29,477 nt of DNA. Source: a virus. The stretch spans positions 1 through 29,477 of the IMG/VR virus record IMGVR_UViG_3300009494_000014, one strand, 5' to 3'. Both the position numbers and the translations under genes were made by a program. Each line of letters starts with the position of its first letter. The first letter of the stretch is position 1. This document shows, piece after piece, positions 2,511 to 28,907 of this stretch. The notes beneath the pieces were generated by a model that ran no database searches, had not been told where the DNA came from, and saw nothing but the letters and a program-made list of their open reading frames with translations.

Positions 2511-5500
2511 TAATCAGACTCAATGCACTCCAAAAGTTTATTGTAATTCTCCAGGCGGTTATCAGCTTCATTAAGGGAGGTCCCGGCATCCGTAGTCACC
2601 TCAACAATATCGCCAGTCTCCGCGACTTCCATTTGAGCAGTGTAGTCTATTCCGGCTTTCTTACCTTTTTTAGCATCGGCCCGGACTTGATCCAGGGTAT
2701 TGACAAAGGCTTTCGCTTCTTTTTTCGCAGCCTTTTCCTCCGCCTCCGCGAACATATCGCTCGTTTCGCCTTTTTCATAACCGAATAAACCTTGTTGCCT
2801 GCCCACGGCCCCAGCGCCAGTGACGGGAGGTTTCCCAAACTTAGCTTGAACCTTCTTACCCTTTGCAGGCCGTTCAACGGCACCCTCCTTTTCAAGTTCC
2901 GCCTGCCGTTCCCATAGCGTTCCCTTCTCAGGAGTTAAGGCAAGCGGTTCTGCCTTTTCTTTAAGATGGGCTTTTTCCCGTATAACTTCTTTTTCTGTGG
3001 CTGAAGGAGACTCAAAGACTTCCTTAAGGGATTCAGGTTCTCTAATAGGCTTTTCTTTTACTTCACGCTCAGTTTCCCGCCTGGGGGAAGGGACTGTAAC
3101 CACTCCCGGAGGGGTTTCGCCCCTGGGCGCCCTAAAACCCTTACGCTCCCTTTCCGCTTTATGTTCTTTAAGATGTTGCTCCGCAACTGTGATGTTTTGA
3201 GCGATGCCATAACTTATCCCCACTCCTTTCTTTTTTATAATGCGGCCATCAGGAAGTTCATATACGAATTCTTTTCCGGCCAGGTATTCATCGGCTGCAT
3301 CAAGTAATTTATGAGCTTCTTCCTCGGATTTGGCCTGAATAATAAATTCATCTCCGGAAATGTGGTATGCAACATAGGCGGTAGTTTGCTTAAGGGCATC
3401 TCCGATCACCCTGAGCAAAACATCACCCGCTTCGTGGCTGATATTATCATTGACCCATTTAAGTGAGTCCGCATCGATGAATACCTGGACAGGCAGGCGT
3501 TCATCTTCTTCATAAGCCCTTTTATTTCCTAAGCCCGTGAGATGGTCAGAAAGGAGTTCCTTGCGCATTTCCTCGGGCGTCATTTGCTCGACACGCGTCC
3601 TTTCCTCAATATCCTTCCTTCTTTCAAATTCCTCCGGAGCCTTTTCAACGACTTCCTTTTCCGTGTACTTCTTTACCTCGATCTTGTATGCCGATATGAC
3701 CTCTGCCAGCATTTTAGCGCGTTCGGTCTTGTCAGGCCCGGCGCGTTCTGTGAGTTGTTTGACCTGGCCTTGATATATCTTATCCAGCTCCGCCTTTGTT
3801 TTATGCTCCGTCATGAAGTCAAGGTCATGCCCCTTAATATCGGCCTTGCTTATGGGTTTTGTTTGGTCCCCGTATTTCAGCCAGGCCTTGAATTCATCAA
3901 CTGAAAGGGCAACAATGTTCCCCAGGCCTTGCCATCCGCTCTCATAGTTAGCCAGGTATGCCACACGGGCTTTCTGCACAGTCTCAAAGCCCATCATGGT
4001 CTTATGTTCATCAAATTGAGTAGTCGCAGGCACCATTTGATTGACTACAAAAACCTTATCGCTCGTTAATTCATCACCAACAAAAACGTCAACCTGATCC
4101 CCGTCTTTATCTTCGGTCCGCAGGATATAGCCGTAATGGTGTTTCACCACGATTTCCCAGGCCTTGCCGTCCTTATCTTTTCCTTTCCGGATAGAGCCTT
4201 TCGGGTTCTCAATGGTAATATCCAGGCCGTAAAGATTAATATGGCCTTTCTGATAATTGCCTGCCTCTTTTTGCGCCTCAGTAGGTTCGGTTTCCGCTTC
4301 CTCCGCCGCCAGGTCGATAGCCTCCTTAAATTCTTTCTCGGGCGCCGCTTTTGAAAATTTCTCAACTGTGAGTTCGAGTTTATCCTTTACTGCATCGGCC
4401 TCAAGTTCTTTTGCCAGGAAGGTTGCTTTAAATGCAGGGGATTCCTTAGCGTAACAAGTGAACTGGTACATATCCGGCATATCAGGAGCAAAGCCCGGCC
4501 AGATGCCGTCATACTTAACCCCATGGCCCGGAAAGAGATTGCCGTTTATCAGTTTGGCTATTAGGTGCCCTTTTTGCTCGATTTCGTCAGGGGATGCCTC
4601 TTGAAGAACTCCACCTGCCTCAGTCTCTTTTGTGCCAGCTTCTCGCTCGAGTATGGCCCGCCCAGGTTCTTTCCCTTTTCGCTCAGTACGTGCCAGCCGT
4701 CGCTCTTGTGTTTCAGCATAGCCCTCCGCCTCCGTTACGGGTGTTAGGTACGCAGCCACCGGCTTTGTGCCCGTCGCCTCTTTCCAGGCAGCATCACGGT
4801 CGGACGCGGCCTCGAAGGGATCATTTAGGATTTCTTCAATTTCTTCTTTTGAAAAGCCGTACTCATTTCCAATCGACGCAATAACGTCGCCCTCAATCTG
4901 TTTGCGATGCCTTGCCGCAATTTCCTCAATTTCTCTGGTGCTAATTCCTTCATGTTGTAGCTCCGTGATTAAAAGTTTATAGTCTTTGTCAGGCAGGCCC
5001 TTAATGGTAGTAGGTTCCTCAATATAGGTTTCAGCAGCCAACCGCAGATCCCTATTCCGCATTTCATAGGCCTCGGATTTTACGTCCTCCCAAATACTTG
5101 CCTGTTTAACTTCATGCTCAGGAAACACATATCCAGACAGCCCTTTTTCAATAGCTCTAACAACTTCTTTTTTGCTATACCGGTTTTTCATAAAGGCTGG
5201 AAATTCAGAAGGAACGCCAAACCATTTCTCGGTACCATCATAATCGGTTACCCTAATGCGATGCCCGGCCTCCGCACCCTTGACTTGTTCGAGCAGGCCC
5301 CGGATATACGGTACCTTGAATTCCATGCCCTCAATTTCGGACGCTTCACCTTTTTCCTTAACCTGTTGGGTTAATCCTTCGTAGCCAGGCCGTGCGGTCC
5401 GGTCGTATGTTTCCCTTGTGACTCTTTCGGCCTCTACTCGACGCGCTTCTTCTGCTTGTGCCGTTTGAGCTTGTTTCTGCCGGGCAATATCTTCCTCAAA

Positions 5501-6898
5501 GACTTGAGCCGATTCCCGTGCCGGTATTCCAAAGGCGGGTGAACCAGGCCATTCGGGTTCCTGTGGGGGAGCTGCTTCGAACATTTGGGATTCTGGTATT
5601 GCTTCGTCCGGGAGAAAGTCCTCGGGTTCGAGCGCCAGCACGTCCCCAGTCATCATATCCTTTTCAGGAATTGTGGCCTCAGACTCTTTAAGCAGGCTGT
5701 CAATAACCTTGTAGGTGGGATGCTTCTTTGGGAATTGACTTTGAATTTCCTTGAGGTGAGTACTGTTAATTTTACCAGTACTGTATGCCTCTCGGAGATC
5801 CGTTTCCTGCTTTTGGGTTTTCGTTTCAGTCTTAAGGAGATCCGCTTCCCCAGGTCCAGACTTTTTACGCCGTTCGGCCATATCTTGCGTCGAACTGACT
5901 GCCGTCCCAGGTGCCATAAAAACGGAGAAGGCAAGCGCCGACTGTTTGCCTGTCTCCCATAACTGGTCAACAATCTCTTTCCTTGTTTGGGTGGGAATTT
6001 TGGTTCCCTTGAGGGCGTTATTGACTTCCGTGGCCATGTAGCGACCGGAGATATTGACTATTTCTTGAAGTTCCTCTTGACCTGTTTCAATAGCGACGCC
6101 AGTTCCATACTTTTTAGCCGCCCGGAAAACAATACTTTTTAGAGCCTTTGATTGAAGGACCTTCTTGACCGATGCAGTCAGGCCTTTCCTAACCAGGCTT
6201 TCAGCCCCCGGTATGGACCGGAGGAAGGTCTTGATCTGCAATAGCTCGATTGCCCCGTTAATAGCACCGACGCCCAGCCCGGCTACCTTTGCGATAGCCT
6301 CATTCATCTTTTCGCCCGTGTCCGGATCTTTCAGGTCTTTGAATTCACGATAGGCCAGCCCAGCCTCAATACCACCAATATTTTCAAGTGACGCGGAGAT
6401 CATACCTATTGAAAATCCAGCCGCAGCCGCAGCAGGTACGGTAATAGGAGCTGCAGGCCCACCCAGGGTAGCAATCGCACCGAATCCAAGGCCTAAAGCC
6501 GTGCCCCGCCTTAAACCTTGCTCCATGCCGGTCAGAGGGATGGGCGCCATTTCAGCCGCCGCCCTAACAGCTTGCTCAGGTAATGCCCTTGATGGGCGCG
6601 GACCACTGGGGATAGTTTCCTCGATAGCTTGAGCCCGCGCCTCAGTCTCAGGGCTTGCGTCCCCCAAAACCTGCTTAAAACCTAACTGACCAATGGAAAC
6701 TTGCTTTTTGCCTATTTCCCAGGATTCTTTTACACGCCCGCCGAAGGTAGGGGCTTCCTTGACTTCTTCCTGCCATTCAGCCTCCCATGGGTTCTCGGTA
6801 CCACCCCGGTCGGTAGGTTCCCAATCAGCCTTGAAGGGATCTTCGTCATCATCGTAAGGTTGCCAATCGGCGTCCCATAATTTTTGCTGTGTAGCCAT
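2510..6898 (-). CDS. Giant polyvalent ejection-type protein with pyrophosphatase-like and GGDEF domains, 1462 aa
   Basis: This is the largest gene of the window and the last of three probable internal virion genes. Residues 6-45 carry three acidic Trp motifs (WDADW, FKADW, WEAEW). A Gly/Ala-rich hydrophobic stretch at about 134-167 could contact or cross a membrane. Residues about 350-600 and 850-880 are charged and largely helical. Residues about 885-1010 resemble a family I inorganic pyrophosphatase: HYGYILRT at 921-928, then DGDQVDVFVG with acidic residues D932, D934 and D937. Residues about 1115-1245 form a GGDEF domain: DHLTGLGNKRAYEE, FIDADSLKWVND with metal-site D1142, and signature SGDEF at 1181-1185. 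The C-terminus (MEVAETGDIVEVTTDAG, then a Leu-rich end) resembles the tail of other phage or plasmid polyvalent proteins. I infer, without proof, that it enters the cell with the DNA. I recognise no peptidoglycan hydrolase domain. Confidence 0.8.
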   Translation of the reverse strand: MATQQKLWDADWQPYDDDEDPFKADWEPTDRGGTENPWEAEWQEEVKEAPTFGGRVKESWEIGKKQVSIGQLGFKQVLGDASPETEARAQAIEETIPSGPRPSRALPEQAVRAAAEMAPIPLTGMEQGLRRGTALGLGFGAIATLGGPAAPITVPAAAAAGFSIGMISASLENIGGIEAGLAYREFKDLKDPDTGEKMNEAIAKVAGLGVGAINGAIELLQIKTFLRSIPGAESLVRKGLTASVKKVLQSKALKSIVFRAAKKYGTGVAIETGQEELQEIVNISGRYMATEVNNALKGTKIPTQTRKEIVDQLWETGKQSALAFSVFMAPGTAVSSTQDMAERRKKSGPGEADLLKTETKTQKQETDLREAYSTGKINSTHLKEIQSQFPKKHPTYKVIDSLLKESEATIPEKDMMTGDVLALEPEDFLPDEAIPESQMFEAAPPQEPEWPGSPAFGIPARESAQVFEEDIARQKQAQTAQAEEARRVEAERVTRETYDRTARPGYEGLTQQVKEKGEASEIEGMEFKVPYIRGLLEQVKGAEAGHRIRVTDYDGTEKWFGVPSEFPAFMKNRYSKKEVVRAIEKGLSGYVFPEHEVKQASIWEDVKSEAYEMRNRDLRLAAETYIEEPTTIKGLPDKDYKLLITELQHEGISTREIEEIAARHRKQIEGDVIASIGNEYGFSKEEIEEILNDPFEAASDRDAAWKEATGTKPVAAYLTPVTEAEGYAETQERRLARTERKGKEPGRAILEREAGTKETEAGGVLQEASPDEIEQKGHLIAKLINGNLFPGHGVKYDGIWPGFAPDMPDMYQFTCYAKESPAFKATFLAKELEADAVKDKLELTVEKFSKAAPEKEFKEAIDLAAEEAETEPTEAQKEAGNYQKGHINLYGLDITIENPKGSIRKGKDKDGKAWEIVVKHHYGYILRTEDKDGDQVDVFVGDELTSDKVFVVNQMVPATTQFDEHKTMMGFETVQKARVAYLANYESGWQGLGNIVALSVDEFKAWLKYGDQTKPISKADIKGHDLDFMTEHKTKAELDKIYQGQVKQLTERAGPDKTERAKMLAEVISAYKIEVKKYTEKEVVEKAPEEFERRKDIEERTRVEQMTPEEMRKELLSDHLTGLGNKRAYEEDERLPVQVFIDADSLKWVNDNISHEAGDVLLRVIGDALKQTTAYVAYHISGDEFIIQAKSEEEAHKLLDAADEYLAGKEFVYELPDGRIIKKKGVGISYGIAQNITVAEQHLKEHKAERERKGFRAPRGETPPGVVTVPSPRRETEREVKEKPIREPESLKEVFESPSATEKEVIREKAHLKEKAEPLALTPEKGTLWERQAELEKEGAVERPAKGKKVQAKFGKPPVTGAGAVGRQQGLFGYEKGETSDMFAEAEEKAAKKEAKAFVNTLDQVRADAKKGKKAGIDYTAQMEVAETGDIVEVTTDAGTSLNEADNRLENYNKLLECIESD

Positions 6899-7202: not shown

Positions 7203-8525
7203 TTAAACTTTGGGCTTTTTCTTTTTGCTGTTCACTTCCTCAGTGGTTATGGTCCCATCAGAGTTCATGGTTGCTTTCATCTTTTTCCCGGTCTTTGGAT
7301 CTGTATAGGTTGCGCTCCCATGCCTTGAGACTTTGCTTTTTTCCTTTGGAGGAAGTTTGGCCTCTTTTTCGGCCTTATCCGCCTTTGCCGCTACGTCAAT
7401 AGCTTCATCCCATTGCAAATTGGTTTCTCCTGCCTTTTCTCCGGTTTTCTCACCGCCCCTCGTTGCCAATACCTTACCGGATGGGTCCATGACCTCGCGT
7501 TTGCCCCCAGGATGAATGACAAGCGTATTCCCGGTCTTTGGGTCCTTATACCGTTTAGCTCCGCCCTCAGCCCCAGGCACTTCGCTAATAGCCTGTTCAG
7601 ATCCAGCAGAAACACCTTTACCAACTATCTTGCTCAATTCCTTTTCGGTTTCCTGATCTATCCAGGTTTCCATGTCCGGCGCGTCCTCTTTGAGTTCACC
7701 CAGGACGTCCTCAAATTTGGAGTTATACCGTTTACGCACATCGTTCCTTACCTGTCTCCGCTGTGCTGGAGTAACGGCTTTCTTGTTATAGGTTGCGTAA
7801 TCTTTCCGGTCCTGTTCACGGTCTTTTCGAGTTTCCCCGGCCTGTTGACCTGCCAGCTTAATAGCTTGAGCCTCGACTTTTGGGTTTAAGAAGCCAACAA
7901 AGGACTTCATAAATTCCTCATTGTTCTTGAAATAACCGGGCTTTTCCTGCTCATTTTGAGGAAACACCAGGACCTCGCCCTTTTCATTCCAGGAGATCCC
8001 GCGCAGGTTCGAGGTTTCGCTTCCATATCGATTGACAAACTCGACGATAGGCCCTGCCTGCCTGTTAGCGACGGCCCATTGAACCATCTTAAAATCTTCG
8101 GACTGCTTGGCCTTGCTCATGCCCCATTCATGCTTTTCCTGCGTGCGGATTTCGCCCATGCCCTCACGGTATTCCTCGCCAGGACTCCCACCGACGCCCT
8201 TTTCTGCAAGGCCTGCCTGTTCATTCAGTTCGTCGGCTACCTTATTTTCAGCAGCCCACCGGCGTTCGTCCTCTTTGTCTCGCTGGGCTTGAACAGCCTG
8301 TGACTCGACAAAATCCTGTTTTCGTTCTTGCAGCTCAATAGCCCTCTGTTGATTAGCCATGCCAGCCGCCGTGTTTCGGATCATGGCAGGGTGCAATCGC
8401 TTATTAAGCGTTTTCAATGTTTCTTGAATCGCTCCCATGGCCTGATATGGATTACTCTTTGGCCTGTTTGGAGTCCATCGACTTGCAGCCTGTGTGCCTG
8501 CCTGTATTCCCTGTGCAAATCCCAT
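7203..8525 (-). CDS. Probable internal virion (ejection) protein, 440 aa
   Basis: The N-terminus is Gln/Ala-rich (MGFAQGIQAGTQAASRW). A long charged helical region follows (ELQERKQDFVESQAVQAQRD, and basic runs near GETRKDREQDRKDYATYNKK). The C-terminal third contains two related short beta motifs, KRYKDPKTGNTLVIHPGGK and SATYTDPKTGKKMKATM, and ends in a basic tail (KKKKPKV). No enzyme motif is visible. Size, helical composition and position between the 339-aa and 1462-aa genes resemble the three consecutive core or ejection genes of short-tailed phages. The SD is AGGGGGA, with ATG 5-6 bases later. The functional call rests on context. Confidence 0.6.
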   Translation of the reverse strand: MGFAQGIQAGTQAASRWTPNRPKSNPYQAMGAIQETLKTLNKRLHPAMIRNTAAGMANQQRAIELQERKQDFVESQAVQAQRDKEDERRWAAENKVADELNEQAGLAEKGVGGSPGEEYREGMGEIRTQEKHEWGMSKAKQSEDFKMVQWAVANRQAGPIVEFVNRYGSETSNLRGISWNEKGEVLVFPQNEQEKPGYFKNNEEFMKSFVGFLNPKVEAQAIKLAGQQAGETRKDREQDRKDYATYNKKAVTPAQRRQVRNDVRKRYNSKFEDVLGELKEDAPDMETWIDQETEKELSKIVGKGVSAGSEQAISEVPGAEGGAKRYKDPKTGNTLVIHPGGKREVMDPSGKVLATRGGEKTGEKAGETNLQWDEAIDVAAKADKAEKEAKLPPKEKSKVSRHGSATYTDPKTGKKMKATMNSDGTITTEEVNSKKKKPKV

Positions 8526-8534
8526 TTTATCCCC

Positions 8535-9554
8535 CTATCCGTTTGCCGGTATCGCTTCGGTTTTAGAGCCAGAGCTTCTGCTAATCCCAAAATTTACCGA
8601 ACCGCTTGGAGTGCCGCCGCCCCCAGGAATTCCGCCAGCCCCCATAAAATAACCCGCCATTTCAGCGTATGGACTGACTACGTTTGAGCCGTAACTACCG
8701 GTCAAATTTGCCAGCGCATTAGTTTGTGAAGATATGGCTTGAGCGCCTGATTGATAAACATCCGCAGCCGTCCGGGCCAAAGCATTCCCGCCTTGACTGA
8801 TACCCAGGGCAAGGTTCCCGGAAACTCTCGGGTCCGCCGTCCTGGCAATATCCAGGCTAACACCAGCCGCCCGCTCCTTTTCACCCCGCCGGGCAACGTT
8901 CATGTTGATAGCTGTATCCCTCGCTTCATCAAGGTATGATCGCCTTGTCAATGCCCCGAACTTGCCTGCCGTGGGATCAATGCCATATCCCATCATTTCC
9001 CGTGCCGCGCCTTGACGTTTGATTTCGCTTTGACCGGCCACATCAGCCGCAGCCCTGCCCTCGACACCCTCATAGTCAGGCCTTGAGTATTGCTGTAATT
9101 GACTGATAGCTTCACCCCTTGCCTGTCCCTCGACTTTAGCTTGTTCCATGAAGGTCTGCTCAGTCTCTCCCCAGCGTTCGCGGTAATCCTTATATTCTTG
9201 CGTCATAAGATCACCCAGCTCATTCAGCTTGCCAACCTGGCCGCCGATAGCCCCACCGTCCCCGCCGCCGAATATGGCATCAAATGTTTTTCCGTACACA
9301 TCTTTGAGCCCTTTCATAGCGGAGGACCATTCACCCATGAACTTCGTGGCAAATTTTCCCGCAGCTTCGGCCTGTTTTTTCTGAAAGTCCCATTGTTCTT
9401 TGGAGAGTTGCAGGTCCCAGCTTGCTTGCTGGGAGGCCGTGTTTGCAAGATTTGTCTCAGAGCTAAGTAAAGAACTCTCCGCTTCACGCGCCTCTCGCCG
9501 CCTTTGTTCTGCTACCCTACCCCCGAACATTACGTCAGTCGGTCCCCAGGACAT
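8535..9554 (-). CDS. Probable internal virion (ejection) protein, 339 aa
   Basis: An N-terminal coiled coil (VAEQRRREAREAESSLLSSE, then QQASWDLQLSKEQWDFQKKQ) is followed by Gly-rich linkers (FGGGDGGAIGGQVG, MGAGGIPGGGGTPSG). Helical Ala/Arg-rich segments contain repeated RR(G/S) pieces (ALTRRSYLDEARD, NVARRGEKERA). This composition is typical of the smallest ejection protein of short-tailed phages, which must unfold to leave the virion. It is the first of three such genes in order. The start is ATG at 9554 behind AGCGGGG. No catalytic signature is seen. Confidence 0.6.
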   Translation of the reverse strand: MSWGPTDVMFGGRVAEQRRREAREAESSLLSSETNLANTASQQASWDLQLSKEQWDFQKKQAEAAGKFATKFMGEWSSAMKGLKDVYGKTFDAIFGGGDGGAIGGQVGKLNELGDLMTQEYKDYRERWGETEQTFMEQAKVEGQARGEAISQLQQYSRPDYEGVEGRAAADVAGQSEIKRQGAAREMMGYGIDPTAGKFGALTRRSYLDEARDTAINMNVARRGEKERAAGVSLDIARTADPRVSGNLALGISQGGNALARTAADVYQSGAQAISSQTNALANLTGSYGSNVVSPYAEMAGYFMGAGGIPGGGGTPSGSVNFGISRSSGSKTEAIPANG

Positions 9555-10795: not shown

Positions 10796-12352
10796 TTACT
10801 CCAATAATCTTAGGTTACCGTCCTCTAAAAGCCTCGCTCCAGTACGGGAAGGCCATCCGGTTCCGTCCTCTAAAAGTCGAGTTTCGCTTGATGATTTCCG
10901 AAAATAGAGAATATCCGTTTTCGGATCGACATAGGCACATTCAGTATAAAAATCGAGCGGAGTAACCTGGCCGGAGATCAAATTGAACACCAAGCCCCCT
11001 TCATCACCGCCAGAGCTGTAAAATATGAAAACCTTATGGTCATGAATGTACGAGTGCATCGTTTCCGGGTGCAGGGCGCTCCATTCATCCACCGTGTAAT
11101 GATCTTTAGTAAGAAGCAACCCCTTAACCCCGTCCACCAGGTACAGGCCGTTAGGTGCCGCATAGATGCCCCCTGTTGTGTATGAGACACTTGACCTTGA
11201 CGAAACGCTTGCGATGGGGTCAGGCATCTTGAGAGGCGTCATAGAATTCGGATCAATCCCGGTCACAGAATAGGGATTTTCCTCCGTGGTTACTATGATC
11301 GTACTCCCCAGGCTGATAATGGAAACGATAGGGCTTGAGAGTGAAAGCCGGTAATCAATAGGGAAGGCCCAAGGCCGGTATGGCTCGGAGAAATACAGGT
11401 CCTTACCCACAAAGCCGACGACGATGCCGTTTGACATATAAGTTAGGCCGCTCAGTTCATCAGGTGGATAGTCCCAATACTGTGAAGGCAGGACGTTCCC
11501 AAGCTGGGTATCTAGTTTTGAATCCGCATAGACGGTCGTTCCGATTGCGATTGTATCAACCAACTGATATTGAGCATAAGACTCCCCGGTATTTATCCGG
11601 TAAATCCGCTTTTCTTGAAGGTTGTTTTTGAAACATCGCCAGGTAACAGTGCCGTCGGTTGTGTCCCCGTCAATAGTGGTTCCCCAGGTCCCCGGTTCAG
11701 CAGCCCCGGACGTCCCGGGTACTACACATTTATATAGGTATGTACCGTTTTCATCACCAACCGGGAAAACTGAATCCCCTTGATTGTAAACTATGGAGGC
11801 TTGCCAAACGAGTGTCATTCCAGAAAGGTTGACCGTTTGCCCGGACATAGCGGAAACGGTATTTGATGCAGGCGCGGGAAGGCCCTGTTCGCCCCAATCA
11901 GTAATAACAGTCCAAGTGTAATTGATCGCGCGAGGATCACCGGACCCGCCGCCCCCCAGGGCAGCCACAGAGGCAAGTTTGGCCGCTGGTATCGCCAGAG
12001 GAAAGAAGTTGATAGGCATAGCACCCGCCCCGGTCGTAGCTTCACTTAGATTTGTTTTCTTTGGGATGCCGTCCCCGGTATAATAAATCTTGTTTTCAGT
12101 GTCCCCGCTTATGGGAGCCCTTACAATGTCAACAGCCGCTTCCCATTCCAACCAGTATTGATCCGCATACAGGTATATGGTCCTAACCGTGCCCTCACTC
12201 TCTAAGACTCCCTCTTGAAGTTCATTGAACCAAGCCTCAATGTGACCGCTTGTGATCTTGACGTTATCGGCTATTTGAGCATCGTTACCGCCCAGGAGGT
12301 CAGGAGCCATCATAGGCCGGATGCCGTGAAATCTGTCAATCGAGTAACGCAT
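10796..12352 (-). CDS. Tail nozzle-like structural protein, 518 aa
   Basis: The product starts MRYSIDRFHGIRPMMAPDLL, with GGNDAQIADNVKITSGHIEA close behind. I recall this opening, and the AINYTWTVITDWGEQGLPAP segment, from large tail hub or nozzle proteins of short-tailed phages. Successive beta segments such as GLTYMSNGIVVGFVGKDLYF, SIISLGSTIIVTTEENPYSV and TTGGIYAAPNGLYLVDGVKG suggest a beta-propeller body. A Gly-rich linker (ALGGGGSGDPR) lies at about residue 136. The C-terminus repeats RLLEDG (SETRLLEDGTGWPS, GARLLEDGNLRLLE). Translation is coupled to the upstream gene (TAATG) without a clear SD of its own. Confidence 0.6.
   Translation of the reverse strand: MRYSIDRFHGIRPMMAPDLLGGNDAQIADNVKITSGHIEAWFNELQEGVLESEGTVRTIYLYADQYWLEWEAAVDIVRAPISGDTENKIYYTGDGIPKKTNLSEATTGAGAMPINFFPLAIPAAKLASVAALGGGGSGDPRAINYTWTVITDWGEQGLPAPASNTVSAMSGQTVNLSGMTLVWQASIVYNQGDSVFPVGDENGTYLYKCVVPGTSGAAEPGTWGTTIDGDTTDGTVTWRCFKNNLQEKRIYRINTGESYAQYQLVDTIAIGTTVYADSKLDTQLGNVLPSQYWDYPPDELSGLTYMSNGIVVGFVGKDLYFSEPYRPWAFPIDYRLSLSSPIVSIISLGSTIIVTTEENPYSVTGIDPNSMTPLKMPDPIASVSSRSSVSYTTGGIYAAPNGLYLVDGVKGLLLTKDHYTVDEWSALHPETMHSYIHDHKVFIFYSSGGDEGGLVFNLISGQVTPLDFYTECAYVDPKTDILYFRKSSSETRLLEDGTGWPSRTGARLLEDGNLRLLE
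10818..10876 (-). repeat. 14-bp direct repeat encoding RLLEDG
   Basis: CCGTCCTCTAAAAG (plus strand) occurs exactly at 10818-10831 and 10863-10876, 45 bases apart and in frame. It encodes two RLLEDG copies at the extreme C-terminus of the nozzle-like protein, and a third partial copy (RLLE) ends the protein. Confidence 0.8.
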
Positions 12353-13036: not shown

Positions 13037-14443
13037 TTAAGCTGAGAAACCCGTGCTTTGGGCCATCGTGAAATAGCCTTTTATATTTGGAGCGTTTGTC
13101 TTTAAAGACCAGCCAAAGAAATACTCCCTTGTAGTTTGCTCGAAACCGCTTTGATCCCCCCCAACATGGTATGTTGCGCCACCACTTGCGTCATAACCGC
13201 ATCCATTCACTTGATAATGGAGATTATCAAGGCCGTCGGTAAGGGCAATCCATGAATTCCCGGTCGGATAGAAATAATCAAAATCAGCGCACATATTTAT
13301 ATTATCTCTACCATAAGCAACATAGAAGTAATCGAGGTCAACGGCGCCGGAGAAGTCAGACCGTGCAGGAGATAAATCGGTTTTTCCCGTCCATGAATCT
13401 CCTGTTTCGTCATATTCGTTATGGTCTCCCGTTGCCGTGCCATTGGAGTAACCAACAGTATCACCGCCTGTATAATAGATCTCACCCAGAGAAGGGCGTC
13501 CAGCAGCCCCGGCCATTCGTGCAGGGCTTGGAACTGCCTGCCTGCCAAGCCATGAATCTCCTGTTTCAGAGTAACGGTCATTATCCGAAAGAACAGCCGC
13601 GCCTATAAAATCTATACCACCAAAGCAATAAGCATAATCGCCATAAGATCCAACGGCCATGTGGGCCTGCCTGGGAGGTGTAGGTATATCGGTTTTAGTC
13701 GTGTAACTCAGGCCAGTTCCCCAATGTTCATTATCCCGACAACAATGACTCCAATTATTTGTACCGCCGCCAAATACGTTTATCCCATCACGTCCACTTG
13801 GAGAAGCAGCCGCCGCTCCATAACGATTTGCGCCGAGATTTGTTCTCTCAGTCCAGTTATCACCGCTCGGATCGTATTGGTCTGTGGCATCGGGATCATC
13901 CAGGCCACCAAAGGCGAAAAGCTGTTGAGCCGAATAGATCCACCCGTTATCCCAATATTCATCGTCACACTTCACCCCGGCGGCCAGGCGCCATTTATTA
14001 TCCAGGGCATGAATCCACCAGCGCCTATGACAGGCATCACCGGATTGATAGACCTTTTCGTTTGGATAGTCAGGTACGAGGATTCCATTAGGATTATAGT
14101 CAATGGTCTTAAATTCACCTTTTTGATTGATCCGCCCCAGGGTTTCGGCAACCGACCTTTGAGCAATCAAGGTACCAGCAGGCCAATTACGCGCAACTGT
14201 GCCGTCTTGACCCCTCGATACAGTCAGCTTATCACCCTGTATGTCAGTGATTTTGCAGACTTCCAGGTTGCCCGCAGCGTCCCGCAGGGTAACGAACATA
14301 TTCCGGCCGGAGGCCCAGCCCTGCAAAAGATTACTGACATACCCACGAATGAGCCTTAAGACCGTGGCAGAGCTATTGGTATATTCGAGCAAACGGGCAT
14401 AGGTCAGATCATTAAAGCCGTGTTTTGAATATGATATAGCCAT
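13037..14443 (-). CDS. Kelch-type beta-propeller tail protein, probable receptor-binding or appendage protein, 468 aa
   Basis: Residues about 1-110 resemble a recurrent phage tail attachment domain, including LTVSRGQDGTVARNWPAGTL and IAQR. Residues about 114-155 hold a linker module (YNPNGILVPDYPNEKVYQSG, then RRWWIHALDNKWR) also found at the end of the adjacent 145-aa protein. From about 170 to the C-terminus there are five or six kelch-like blades, each with a Gly-Gly and a Tyr-x(5-6)-Trp element: FAFGGLDDPDATDQYDPSGD with NWTER, YCFGGIDF with RYSETGDSWLGR, YYTGGDTV with EYDETGDSWTGK, and DYFYPTGNSWIA. Kelch propellers bind proteins or glycans, so host recognition is a fair inference. No depolymerase active site is visible. 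Confidence 0.65.
   Translation of the reverse strand: MAISYSKHGFNDLTYARLLEYTNSSATVLRLIRGYVSNLLQGWASGRNMFVTLRDAAGNLEVCKITDIQGDKLTVSRGQDGTVARNWPAGTLIAQRSVAETLGRINQKGEFKTIDYNPNGILVPDYPNEKVYQSGDACHRRWWIHALDNKWRLAAGVKCDDEYWDNGWIYSAQQLFAFGGLDDPDATDQYDPSGDNWTERTNLGANRYGAAAASPSGRDGINVFGGGTNNWSHCCRDNEHWGTGLSYTTKTDIPTPPRQAHMAVGSYGDYAYCFGGIDFIGAAVLSDNDRYSETGDSWLGRQAVPSPARMAGAAGRPSLGEIYYTGGDTVGYSNGTATGDHNEYDETGDSWTGKTDLSPARSDFSGAVDLDYFYVAYGRDNINMCADFDYFYPTGNSWIALTDGLDNLHYQVNGCGYDASGGATYHVGGDQSGFEQTTREYFFGWSLKTNAPNIKGYFTMAQSTGFSA
13391..13567 (-). repeat. 18-bp direct repeat within the kelch gene
   Basis: CCATGAATCTCCTGTTTC (plus strand) is exact at 13391-13408 and 13550-13567. It encodes ETGDSW in two neighbouring kelch blades. 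The identity at DNA level suggests recent blade duplication or gene conversion. Confidence 0.75.
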
Positions 14444-25188: not shown

Positions 25189-25347
25189 TTAATTTTCATC
25201 ATCAAAGGCAAGATCGCGTTCGCCTGTGGTTAGATCATACCCGGATGCCCACCTTTTAAAGCCAAGGCCAGCAAGTGCTTTTTCAATGTTATTATCCAGG
25301 TCAACATCGATCTTGTCGTCTTTCTTGTAAATAACTTTCAGTTTCAT
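25189..25347 (-). CDS. Small conserved-looking protein between terL and portal, 52 aa
   Basis: ATG 25347 overlaps the terL stop as TAATG and TAA lies at 25189. The product reads MKLKVIYKKDDKIDVDLDNN, then an amphipathic helix (IEKALAGLGFKRWASGYD) and an acidic end (LTTGERDLAFDDEN). The GFKRWASGYDLTTGERDLAF pattern is one I associate with short phage proteins at this position. It is easily missed because of length. It is probably translated by coupling to terL. The role is unknown; it may assist packaging or portal assembly. Confidence 0.6.
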   Translation of the reverse strand: MKLKVIYKKDDKIDVDLDNNIEKALAGLGFKRWASGYDLTTGERDLAFDDEN

Positions 25348-27785
25348 TAAGTCCACCCACGAGGATCTTTCCGGTCTGCATTCCTATTTTGGTCCCCGGA
25401 CATGACATTGGTTCCGCCTAATTCAAACGTAGCCCTAAATCTATGCAGTGTTGCCATGGTCCTTAAGGCATCGGCACCGTTAGAGTTATGAACTATAGCC
25501 CCGTTCTCTAAAGAAAAATGCCCCACGCCTGGAACAGTGAGGCACCAAACATCTTCTTTTTTATTTGGATTGGTTGTAACGGATACGACGCGCAACGGCT
25601 TTGCATGAAGGGGAGCAATAAATTTGGCTATGGCCGCTTTTACGAATAAGGGCGGGAAATGTTTTTCCACAAATCGGACAAACTCTATCTTCACGTTTCC
25701 ATTTCGTCCATGATTTGGATCGTTTTGCCTGCCGGCTATGCCAGAGACGGCCCGCCTCTGACTTGTGCCAATCAGCGGCTTTCTGACGTGCCTGTGGGGT
25801 AAAATGTTCTTTTCGCGTTCCGTGTGTTTTCTTCCAGTTATCAGAGAGGTGTTTTTTAATTGGCAAACATTCGAGGTTTGATAAATGATTGTCGGTAATA
25901 ATGTTGTTTTTATGATGGATATGGCAATCATTTGGTGTAGGGCCAAAAGCATCTTCCCAAACAACCTTGTGAAGATATCTGCCACCCTGGGAGAAATATT
26001 CTTGCTTATGTGGCGAAACGCGAAATAAACGTCCATCAAAATATTGTGTGATAGGGTCAAGGAAGACTGGATCTGCAAACCCCTCTGGAGGTCGTTTGCG
26101 TATTTCCACCCTTTCTCCGTTAAGAATAAATGATCCGGCGTACATTTCACCGTAAGTCCGTCGTTGAACGTGACCGCCACAAGTTGGGCATTTTTCTTTG
26201 TTATGTGAGGATTCAGGTATTGCTTCCAGCCACATGATGTTAAGACCTCCCCCGTACAAGGTAGGTCCATTATCTGATACGTTCCGGTACGTGTCAAGAC
26301 TTTTGTTTGACCTGCCAAGCAGGCCCAATCGTGCAAGGGCGTGGTCCTGTAAGAGCCCAGCGCCTCGTTCCATTCCTTTCGGTAGGACTCCACAGAGTTC
26401 AACCCAACATCTTTTTTCATATACCGCTTGGTTGTGTTGACTTCATCAAAAACACATATTCCCAGCATTTGACGGACCTGCTCAATCCCGCTTTCCTTAC
26501 TCAGCTTGGGAGCTATGTGAAATTGAAGGCCCAGGGCGGCGGCTGAATCAATCCGTCGCTTTCCGCTATTACCCCACTCCCGAACGTTAATATCATGGGG
26601 AGCCCCGTGTATTCCGTAATGGTAGCCCTTTTCGAGCGTCCAGGTGTCCAGGATTTCATGCTTGTAATGATCGAGGCCCTCGCCAGAATCCTCATGGTAG
26701 TCAATCACATGGATCTCGCGTCCGACGTCCTGGGTGAACCAAATGGCCGTGGTATCATCCATGCCAATATCCCACCAGGTGTCAACAAGAATTCCAGGTT
26801 GATATGGCACCCTTGTAATTCGGCCCTGTTCTCGAATCTTAATAAATTGCGTCGCATAGAACGTCCCCATGATAGCGGCCTCAAAAGCCTCTATCCAGGT
26901 GGACGGATGCTCCCGTTTCATATCATCGCCTTGCACATTCCATTTCTTGACGTACCAGGCCTTTTGCCAAAGATCGAGCTTGACTCCATGCTTATCCCGG
27001 ATCTCATTGAAATATTTGTTCTGATATTCGAGGAAGGTAATGCCGAAGGGATTAAGGCGGTTAAAGGCGTTTTCGTACCAGGAGAAAAAGAAGAATTTGT
27101 AATCCATCTTTGAAAGGAAGGAATTGCTTTGCTTTGCGGCCTGGGCGGTCTTTGTCATTTGGTAGAAATCGCCCTCGCGGCCCTCTGCCGTACTCTCGAT
27201 AATCACATAGTTACCAGGATGAACAGTGTTTAACGAGCCTGTCTTGATCTCACGGGCTTTCTCAGGGTATTTCGCACATATCTTGCCATACTCTGAAATA
27301 TGTAAGAGCTGATAGGTACCTGATCGCCCGGAGGTTGTAACACGCAGGCTTGAACCATTGGAGAAACGGAGAACCCGGGCGCTTGACCTATCGGCACGGA
27401 TCTCGCTCCGGATAGATTGAGGCAGGTTGTCATAGGCGTGTTTGATATTCCTATGGAAAAAGTCCTCCGCGTCCTCTTTATTGTGAGCGATGATAGCGGC
27501 CTGTATGTTTGAGGTAAACAAACAGGTGTCCAGGAACAATATACACGCTTCTGTTGTAATGCCATGCTGTCTCGATTTGAGGATTAGGTTGAGGTACCAC
27601 AGGCCCAGGTAAAGAATCTTTTGGACCAGGTTCATCTTAAAATCAATCTCAATGCCATCCTTATTGATGATTTTATACAGATGATCCAGACGCCAGCGCC
27701 GGTTTTTGAGCTTCTTTGAGAACTCTTGACGATAGGCTTCCTCTTGCTCAGGATCAAAAGCGATAGCTGGTTCAGCGCCGGTCAT
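25347..27785 (-). CDS. terL: Large terminase subunit (ATPase and nuclease) containing an intein, 812 aa precursor
   Basis: The motor protein that packages DNA. An ATPase domain has a Walker A-like KSRQHGITT at 70-78 and a Walker B/catalytic ISEYGK at 163-168. An RNase H-like nuclease domain has acidic residues D339 (TWWDIGMDD) and D398 (GAPHDIN), with a third, D772 (NGADALR). Residues 489-767 are an intein: it starts at C489 after TTPLHDWA and ends at N767 before S768. Removing it leaves a 533-aa protein, a normal terminase length, and restores HDWASNGADALR, the usual third nuclease motif. The start overlaps the small-terminase stop and has GGAGGAAATCGA upstream. The intein frame is open throughout. 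Splicing is inferred, not shown. Confidence 0.85.
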   Translation of the reverse strand: MTGAEPAIAFDPEQEEAYRQEFSKKLKNRRWRLDHLYKIINKDGIEIDFKMNLVQKILYLGLWYLNLILKSRQHGITTEACILFLDTCLFTSNIQAAIIAHNKEDAEDFFHRNIKHAYDNLPQSIRSEIRADRSSARVLRFSNGSSLRVTTSGRSGTYQLLHISEYGKICAKYPEKAREIKTGSLNTVHPGNYVIIESTAEGREGDFYQMTKTAQAAKQSNSFLSKMDYKFFFFSWYENAFNRLNPFGITFLEYQNKYFNEIRDKHGVKLDLWQKAWYVKKWNVQGDDMKREHPSTWIEAFEAAIMGTFYATQFIKIREQGRITRVPYQPGILVDTWWDIGMDDTTAIWFTQDVGREIHVIDYHEDSGEGLDHYKHEILDTWTLEKGYHYGIHGAPHDINVREWGNSGKRRIDSAAALGLQFHIAPKLSKESGIEQVRQMLGICVFDEVNTTKRYMKKDVGLNSVESYRKEWNEALGSYRTTPLHDWACLAGQTKVLTRTGTYQIMDLPCTGEVLTSCGWKQYLNPHITKKNAQLVAVTFNDGLTVKCTPDHLFLTEKGWKYANDLQRGLQIQSSLTLSHNILMDVYFAFRHISKNISPRVADIFTRLFGKMLLALHQMIAISIIKTTLLPTIIYQTSNVCQLKNTSLITGRKHTEREKNILPHRHVRKPLIGTSQRRAVSGIAGRQNDPNHGRNGNVKIEFVRFVEKHFPPLFVKAAIAKFIAPLHAKPLRVVSVTTNPNKKEDVWCLTVPGVGHFSLENGAIVHNSNGADALRTMATLHRFRATFELGGTNVMSGDQNRNADRKDPRGWT
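25561..26235 (-). CDS. HNH endonuclease nested out of frame inside the terminase intein, 224 aa
   Basis: This gene lies entirely within the intein coding sequence in a different frame (its first base is the third base of a TerL codon). The ATG at 26235 has GGGGGAGG ten bases upstream. Features: a CPTC motif at 16-19, then RRTYGEMYAGSFILNGERVE and KRPPEGFADPVFL. An HNH core follows: RYLHKVVWEDAFG at 86-98, HIHHKNN at 105-111, DNHLSNLE at 115-122 and KKHLSDN at 127-133. The C-terminal part has a Cys4 cluster (CPIC at 186-189, CSPSC at 207-211) and a basic end. From memory the whole length, including the region over intein block B, matches an HNH family of phages. Homing at the terL site or a terminase-associated cleavage role are both possible. 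An upstream in-frame ATG (26373) is less likely. Confidence 0.8.
   Translation of the reverse strand: MWLEAIPESSHNKEKCPTCGGHVQRRTYGEMYAGSFILNGERVEIRKRPPEGFADPVFLDPITQYFDGRLFRVSPHKQEYFSQGGRYLHKVVWEDAFGPTPNDCHIHHKNNIITDNHLSNLECLPIKKHLSDNWKKTHGTRKEHFTPQARQKAADWHKSEAGRLWHSRQAKRSKSWTKWKREDRVCPICGKTFPALIRKSGHSQIYCSPSCKAVARRIRYNQSK
26246..26253 (-). promoter_or_regulatory. Internal ribosome binding site for the nested HNH gene
   Basis: GGGGGAGG lies inside the intein block A region (codons for T-G-E-V), ten bases before ATG 26235. It decides the HNH start and implies translation separate from TerL. Confidence 0.65.
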
Positions 27786-28312: not shown

Positions 28313-28540
28313 TCAGAACGTTTCACCCTTCGAGGATTTAATTGCAATCCAGCGCTTGAGTGAGCTGGGAAAGGCACAGACAACCCGGCGAGGGGGAGGC
28401 CCGGAATTGCGATAAAATATGTATCCGCCATTATGGAGTTCCTGCCTATATTGCATCATCTTTCGCACAGAGCAATTAAACATGCCGGCGATGGAATTCC
28501 AACCTTGAATCGCTATTTCACCGTCATACGGCACAATCAC
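28313..28540 (-). CDS. Small helix-turn-helix DNA-binding protein, 75 aa, GTG start
   Basis: The sequence contains GWNSIAGMFNCSVRKMMQYR, then LHNGGYIFYRNSG and PPPRRVVCAFPSSLKRWIAI. An Ile-Ala-x-x-Phe-x-Cys-Ser-Val-Arg-Lys helix pair, a GG turn and a following basic/Trp helix give the pattern of a winged or MerR/excisionase-like HTH. The GTG start overlaps the upstream stop (GTGA). It sits next to the repeat array and the terminase genes. Binding that array, regulating packaging genes, or acting as a Nu1-like terminase component are possible. The fold call is by pattern only. Confidence 0.6.
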   Translation of the reverse strand: MIVPYDGEIAIQGWNSIAGMFNCSVRKMMQYRQELHNGGYIFYRNSGPPPRRVVCAFPSSLKRWIAIKSSKGETF

Positions 28541-28887
28541 ACCTTCCTACCATACATTTTATTATTTAAAATATATTCAATTAGCTCAGGGGCGGGATGA
28601 AACCACTCACCACGTTTTCGATATTTCTTAAATCTCTTATGGAGTTCAGCTTCTAAGTCAAAACCGCCCTTCATCTTACCTATCAGCTTTATTTTCATAC
28701 AGTTATCAATCTGCATTCTCACGAGTCTTGATTTAACATGGCGCGTAGTGCCTATCTTTACAAACCCATCCTCATTTTGCACAAAATAAACGTAAGGCTG
28801 TTTTTGTAGGTGTGGAACTTGACAAAACGCGCCCTGTACAAGCGGAAGGCTGGTCACTCTGTTCATTTCATCAATGGTTACCGGCAT
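28537..28887 (-). CDS. GIY-YIG-type nuclease domain protein (T5orf172/MUG113-like), 116 aa
   Basis: I chose ATG 28887, with GAGGGG seven bases upstream; a GTG at 28902 is in frame. Residues about 32-97 show the compact GIY-YIG variant. YVYFVQNEDGFVKIGTT supplies the YVYF and VKIG strands. RHVKSRLVRMQ holds the catalytic-type arginine. AELHKRFKKYRKRGEWFHP is the typical end with acidic and His/Trp residues. Proteins with this domain are common in phages and are assumed to be DNA nickases or nucleases, but few have been tested. The start of the next gene overlaps its stop (GTGA). Its place just ahead of the packaging genes may indicate a terminase-associated or homing role. Confidence 0.7.
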   Translation of the reverse strand: MPVTIDEMNRVTSLPLVQGAFCQVPHLQKQPYVYFVQNEDGFVKIGTTRHVKSRLVRMQIDNCMKIKLIGKMKGGFDLEAELHKRFKKYRKRGEWFHPAPELIEYILNNKMYGRKV

Positions 28888-28907
28888 TTCAAATCCCCTC
28901 ACTTAAT

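Follow-up and report, generated by a model that had tools for sequence, protein, structure and literature searches.

The window, by which we mean the whole stretch of 29,477 nucleotides analysed here, forms part of a linear virus record of 32,275 bases and harbours the gene for a large protein, P0001, that comes after the genes for terminase, portal, head protein and tail/internal proteins in a T7-like order (Table 1). The N-terminal region of P0001 matches gp32 of Cobetia phage Carin1 (tblastn E 4e-10, 31% identity), whose gene comes after those for the tail nozzle and a putative lysozyme, and in relatives of P0001 the giant ORF is located behind genes matching tail protein phrog_376, 'internal virion protein' phrog_511, head closure, 'DNA ejection protein' or endolysin families. 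Judged by gene order, P0001 is encoded where T7-like phages place their ejected internal virion proteins, and its delivery into the host is likely; the original prediction had named it a probable ejected virion protein, an attribution that the gene order supports well. Pfam and PHROGs profile searches found no metallopeptidase or other release domain and no DNA-binding domain in P0001.

Amongst the tail genes lies one for a Kelch-repeat-like protein that is possibly a receptor-binding part. The terminase ORF contains an intein in which a homing-type endonuclease is nested out of frame, with the intein's own frame still open. A RusA-type endodeoxyribonuclease gene (E 1e-22) is found on the minus strand of locus L179 at 3741-4205, which corresponds to about 31440-31904 of the full record (G000), outside the window.

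Table 1. Features of the window and of protein P0001, with the evidence for each.
Feature	Position	Strand	Evidence
P0001, polyvalent, probably ejected virion protein, 1462 aa	2510-6898	minus	open frame; two unrelated enzyme domains; last large gene behind virion genes
GGDEF domain with conserved N-terminal helical part, residues 1085-1270 as modelled	3089-3646	minus	PF00990, AlphaFold2, Foldseek
C-terminal basic motif KAERERKGFRAPRGETP, K1247 to P1263	3110-3160	minus	conservation
SGDEF signature, residues 1181-1185	3344-3358	minus	conservation
FIDADSLKWVND, residues 1140-1151, with metal-site D1142, phosphate-side K1147 and guanine-contact N1150	3446-3481	minus	conservation; alignment with solved cyclases
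DHLTGLGNKR, start-of-domain motif, residues 1118-1127	3518-3547	minus	sequence
N-terminal motif RR.D...R.....M of polyvalent members, residues 1093-1106	3581-3622	minus	conservation
Inorganic pyrophosphatase (InPase) domain, residues 872-1015	3854-4285	minus	PF18823; acidic residues
Region related to Cobetia phage Carin1 gp32, N-terminal residues 178-339	5882-6367	minus	tblastn
Gene without match	7203-8525	minus	no Pfam or PHROGs match
'Virion structural protein'	8535-9554	minus	phrog_8003
Tail/'internal virion protein'	10796-12352	minus	phrog_511
Kelch-repeat-like protein	13037-14443	minus	PF13418, E 6e-5
Terminase ORF with intein at residues 529-767	25347-27785	minus	PF14890 (intein)
270-aa ORF inside the terminase intein, other reading frame	25561-26373	minus	HNH_3 endonuclease domain, E 4e-11
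Small protein with T5orf172/MUG113 (GIY-YIG-like) domain	28537-28902	minus	E 1.5e-10

The GGDEF domain originally predicted in P0001 is borne out by profile searches and by its predicted structure. PF00990 matches residues 1126-1231 (E 2.1e-7) with 31.3 bits, above its curated cut-off of 23.8, and phrog_5594, the PHROG assigned to a solo GGDEF-like protein in a phage record, matches residues 1088-1265 (E 1.8e-22); TIGR00254, the general GGDEF model of NCBIfam, reaches E 6e-7, yet its 29.3 bits stay below its own cut-off of 37.4. Sequence searches of solved structures returned GGDEF-domain proteins as best matches, chiefly diguanylate cyclases. AlphaFold2, supplied with a 68-row alignment of the window and fetched relatives, predicted a GGDEF fold for residues 1085-1270 with a mean pLDDT of 95 and a pTM of 0.86, and every one of the best 50 Foldseek matches listed from the PDB has a GGDEF domain, diguanylate cyclases such as SiaD, WspR, PleD and DgcB forming the majority (E-values from 1e-8 to 1e-6, TM-scores moderate at about 0.5-0.67). 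Against viral models the best named match is a protein of Bordetella phage CN1. The predicted position at 3160-3555 was correct but its extent was too small, as the conserved unit covers residues 1093-1270 or thereabouts (about 3089-3622) and takes in the N-terminal helical part and the C-terminal K..R.....R..RG..P motif. By profile, conservation and model, the domain is a real GGDEF domain and not a degenerate one. A chance motif is ruled out by the profile match, the fold and the conservation, and degeneracy as the default assumption is rejected because the catalytic positions are amongst the best conserved. A cyclase of the mCpol/Cas10 type is likewise unsupported: in mCpol the GG(D/E)EF motif is nearly absent (PMC12657218), GDEF is kept here, and the listed PDB matches are all GGDEF-domain proteins.

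Conservation was counted in an alignment of 92 rows, of which a few come from outside the phage clade described below; some columns cover fewer rows. The metal-site aspartate, the ND pair and the DEF triad, whose retention had been predicted, are present and nearly invariant: D1142 is kept in 90/92, D1144 in 89/92, K1147 in 83/92, N1150 in 92/92 and D1159 in 86/92 rows, whilst G1182 and E1184 occur in all 91 and D1183 in 90/91. Flanking motifs are retained at the start of the domain (T1121 82/91, G1122 80/91, N1125 80/91), in the C-terminal basic motif (K1247 82/86, R1250 78/86, R1256 83/84, R1259 80/84) and at the N-terminus (R1094 67/83, M1106 75/88). The family profile aligns the kept residues to the DxDxxKxxND and GG(D/E)EF motifs of solved cyclases, and the metal, phosphate and guanine-contact residues are in place; in PleD these positions bind metals, triphosphate and guanine. 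The replacement of the first glycine by serine was also correctly foreseen. P0001 has SGDEF in place of the canonical GG(D/E)EF, and this is the usual form in the phage clade, with serine in 82, glycine in 7 and alanine in 2 of the 91 rows at this position. ECA3270 (SGDEF) and VCA0965 (AGDEF) are active, although a serine variant of VCA0965 is inactive (PMC3974145), and MbaA (SGDEF) apparently makes c-di-GMP in vivo, although its cytoplasmic domain failed in vitro (PMC8079147). By analogy with these enzymes, the SGDEF signature can be compatible with cyclase activity and the strict canonical motif would be unneeded.

Two further traits characterise the phage domains: 79 of 81 clade rows lack the RxxD inhibition site, and the distance from the LTGLxN motif to the first strand has a median of 13 residues in the clade vs 20.5 in the non-clade GGDEF domains sampled. 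Estimates of dN/dS lie between 0.08 and 0.25 in the 11 pairs of relatives with measurable synonymous divergence, indicating that the relatives of this domain are under purifying selection; synonymous sites are saturated in the window's own pairwise comparisons. The retention of the GTP-site residues across the whole clade supports a working diguanylate cyclase as opposed to a relic, and the GGDEF domain of P0001 is probably functional. Helices are predicted in front of the domain, and the linker and the relative orientation of the InPase and GGDEF domains are of low confidence (two-domain model, pTM 0.44).

A scan of viral contigs seeded with eight phage sequences returned 80 loci, to which prokaryote genome records added seven further phage-type loci (L092-L098), and most relatives are part of ORFs 1.5-5 kaa long. 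As the scan relied on two short motifs, motif frequencies are partly selected; a single motif sufficed for a match, and the other motif therefore provides independent evidence. A careful tree of 65 rows places those from phages on one side of a branch with support of 100/99, the bootstrap being not fully settled, and a quick tree of 119 rows recovers the same split between phage and bacterial sequences (SH-aLRT 95); rows were picked by similarity and motif, which does not set the outer limit of the clade. A recently captured bacterial cyclase is unsupported, as the phage clade stands apart from the sampled bacterial GGDEF domains (100/99, with rows chosen by similarity and motif), and amongst the matches listed from a plasmid collection we found ordinary bacterial cyclases on large replicons. 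The clade holds both polyvalent forms and solo proteins of the YuA type. Solo proteins ranked at the top in three tblastn searches against 50,697 phage records, and other giant relatives bear ART, ddrB-ParB, methylase, helicase, RadC or GNAT domains. In YuA-like phages (L003, 7977-8447; L004, 5977-6447) a solo SGDEF gene has an antirestriction gene on one side and, on the other, a gene that is uncharacterised or putatively DNA-binding; such surroundings hint at a role in host takeover early on.

Neither this clade of viral relatives nor a second enzyme domain in the same chain featured in the original prediction. PF18823 matches residues 874-1008 of P0001 (E 1.4e-54), and the acidic residues D932, D934, D937, D963 and E964 are present, with the DGDxxD and DE motifs kept; by profile and metal site the domain is a type I inorganic pyrophosphatase. 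It occurs in 16 of 92 ORFs, the window counted, and most family members are without it in the sequence available, many of the ORFs being incomplete through contig or locus ends. In 12 of the 15 ORFs for which the distance was measured, no more than 160 aa separate the InPase and GGDEF domains, whereas random placement predicts 2.6 such ORFs, and none of 5000 random draws reached 12, a figure that is not a probability since the rows share kinship. The InPase domain is found on either side of the GGDEF domain, which argues that the two were brought together more than once. As the cyclase reaction yields two molecules of pyrophosphate, their clearance is a plausible role for the InPase domain, and its placement beside the GGDEF domain suggests that it removes the by-product of the cyclase. 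Pyrophosphate clearance has been proposed for such InPase domains in general (Iyer et al. 2017, PMC5512222).

We propose that P0001 is polyvalent, belongs to the internal virion proteins of a short-tailed phage and stands in place of T7 gp16; it would be packaged in virions and enter the host by ejection together with the DNA. Its C-terminal third would carry a diguanylate cyclase with catalytic competence, from a phage-specific clade in which SGDEF prevails; two copies may be joined via the ejection complex or the helical region that precedes the domain, and the paired GGDEF domains would bind GTP-Mg and convert it to c-di-GMP and two pyrophosphates. The pyrophosphatase domain of the same chain may hydrolyse the latter and so favour the cyclase reaction, and in the absence of the RxxD product-inhibition site the cyclase should not be throttled by its own product. 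Points that weigh against this reading are our estimate that P0001 would enter the host in few copies, which calls for a high turnover or a local effect, together with the serine in the signature, the TIGR00254 score below its cut-off, the moderate TM-scores, the lack of InPase in most family members and the location of the solo YuA-type genes away from the virion genes. We hypothesise that an early pulse of c-di-GMP alters the surface, motility or defence state of the host in favour of the phage, for example such that later phages are excluded; candidate benefits are altered receptors with superinfection exclusion, motility arrest and interference with nucleotide-based defence. Precedents for a host effect are indirect and analogical: the receptor of phage N4 in E. 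coli is reported to be a c-di-GMP-dependent surface glycan (PMC8669472), and lysogens of Bordetella phage LK3, which has a solo member, overproduce biofilm and also show increased motility, with causality untested there (PMC8471281). That P0001 is an ejected polyvalent virion protein whose active cyclase makes c-di-GMP at the start of infection is a reading to which we give about an even chance of being right. The broader generalisation, namely that diguanylate cyclases ejected from virions form a widespread class specific to phages, free of product inhibition, sometimes coupled to a pyrophosphatase in one chain and able to reset host c-di-GMP within minutes, before phage gene expression, is offered tentatively and may well prove too broad.

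Alternative readings differ in what they ask of the catalytic site. The domain may no longer be catalytic and act instead as a GTP or c-di-GMP sensor or play a structural or dimerising part within the ejected protein, in keeping with the serine at the first glycine position and with the many GGDEF domains with changed motifs that are receptors or regulators (PMC3974145). We consider this unlikely, since D1142, D1183, E1184 and K1147, which a non-catalytic module would not need, are amongst the most conserved positions of the clade, and the RxxD site for c-di-GMP binding, often kept in receptor-type domains, is missing. An active nucleotidyl cyclase with another product, such as hybrid cGAMP or a linear dinucleotide that would occupy or confuse host immune receptors (CBASS, type III CRISPR or Panoptes-like), finds a parallel in related palm domains that make other products in antiphage systems (PMC12657218) and in the suggestion of Iyer et al. 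that host nucleotide responses are interfered with (PMC5512222). However, the guanine-contact residues of canonical cyclases are kept, with N1150 invariant and D1159 nearly so in the counts above, and amongst the Foldseek matches listed the fold resembles GGDEF-domain proteins and not mCpol/Cas10, which renders a different product quite improbable.

The remaining alternative concerns delivery. P0001 may be a late-expressed cytoplasmic or capsid-assembly factor that is not ejected, its cyclase acting late or on the next host generation; the solo YuA-type members have their genes apart from the structural ones, next to DNA-binding and antirestriction genes, and show that the domain can work without packaging. 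In the window and several podovirus lineages, however, the gene for the polyvalent form comes immediately after those for tail and internal proteins, and the N-terminus of P0001 matches a Carin1 protein in the gp16 position, so that a non-ejected P0001 appears very unlikely to us. If the proposed ejection of an active cyclase is true, phages would open infection by writing into host cyclic-dinucleotide signalling, beyond erasing defence signals. Motility is under c-di-GMP control, as are surface structures that include phage receptors; superinfection and entry into biofilms could thus be shaped by an injected cyclase. The phage clade moreover constitutes a concrete set of domains that are assayable in isolation.

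Iyer et al. (2017, PMC5512222) predicted polyvalent proteins that contain GGDEF and InPase domains and proposed that they are injected. Like these, P0001 is a large chain that combines unrelated enzyme domains including InPase and GGDEF and is encoded among late virion genes; unlike them, it has no detected metallopeptidase or DNA-binding domain. The presence of unrelated domains in one chain and the location amongst virion genes place P0001 with the polyvalent proteins. Our literature search found no polyvalent GGDEF domain with a tested function. The solo GGDEF proteins of YuA-like phages (YuA gp44, Bordetella CN1/CN2; phrog_5594) belong to the same clade with about 35% identity and share with P0001 the motifs DSLKW(V/I)ND, (S/A)GDEF and the C-terminal K..R.....R..RG..P, but are free-standing proteins of 150-157 aa encoded outside the virion genes and without InPase. 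Bacterial diguanylate cyclases such as SiaD, PleD, DgcB and WspR share the fold and active-site residues, whereas P0001 has its first glycine replaced, no RxxD, a shorter alpha-1 segment and no sensory or receiver domain. With internal virion proteins of the T7 gp16 type P0001 shares its place as the last of the large genes, after those for tail and internal proteins; it differs in having no match to a gp16 family, and its similarity to a protein so placed, Carin1 gp32, is confined to the N-terminal region. Proteins of this kind have thus been known since 2017, when their GGDEF domain was described as 'not very widespread' (PMC5512222), in contrast to the approximately 80 viral contigs with this phage clade found here; the present analysis adds how far the phage clade extends and how it is defined, the retention of the active site and the adjacency of the InPase domain.
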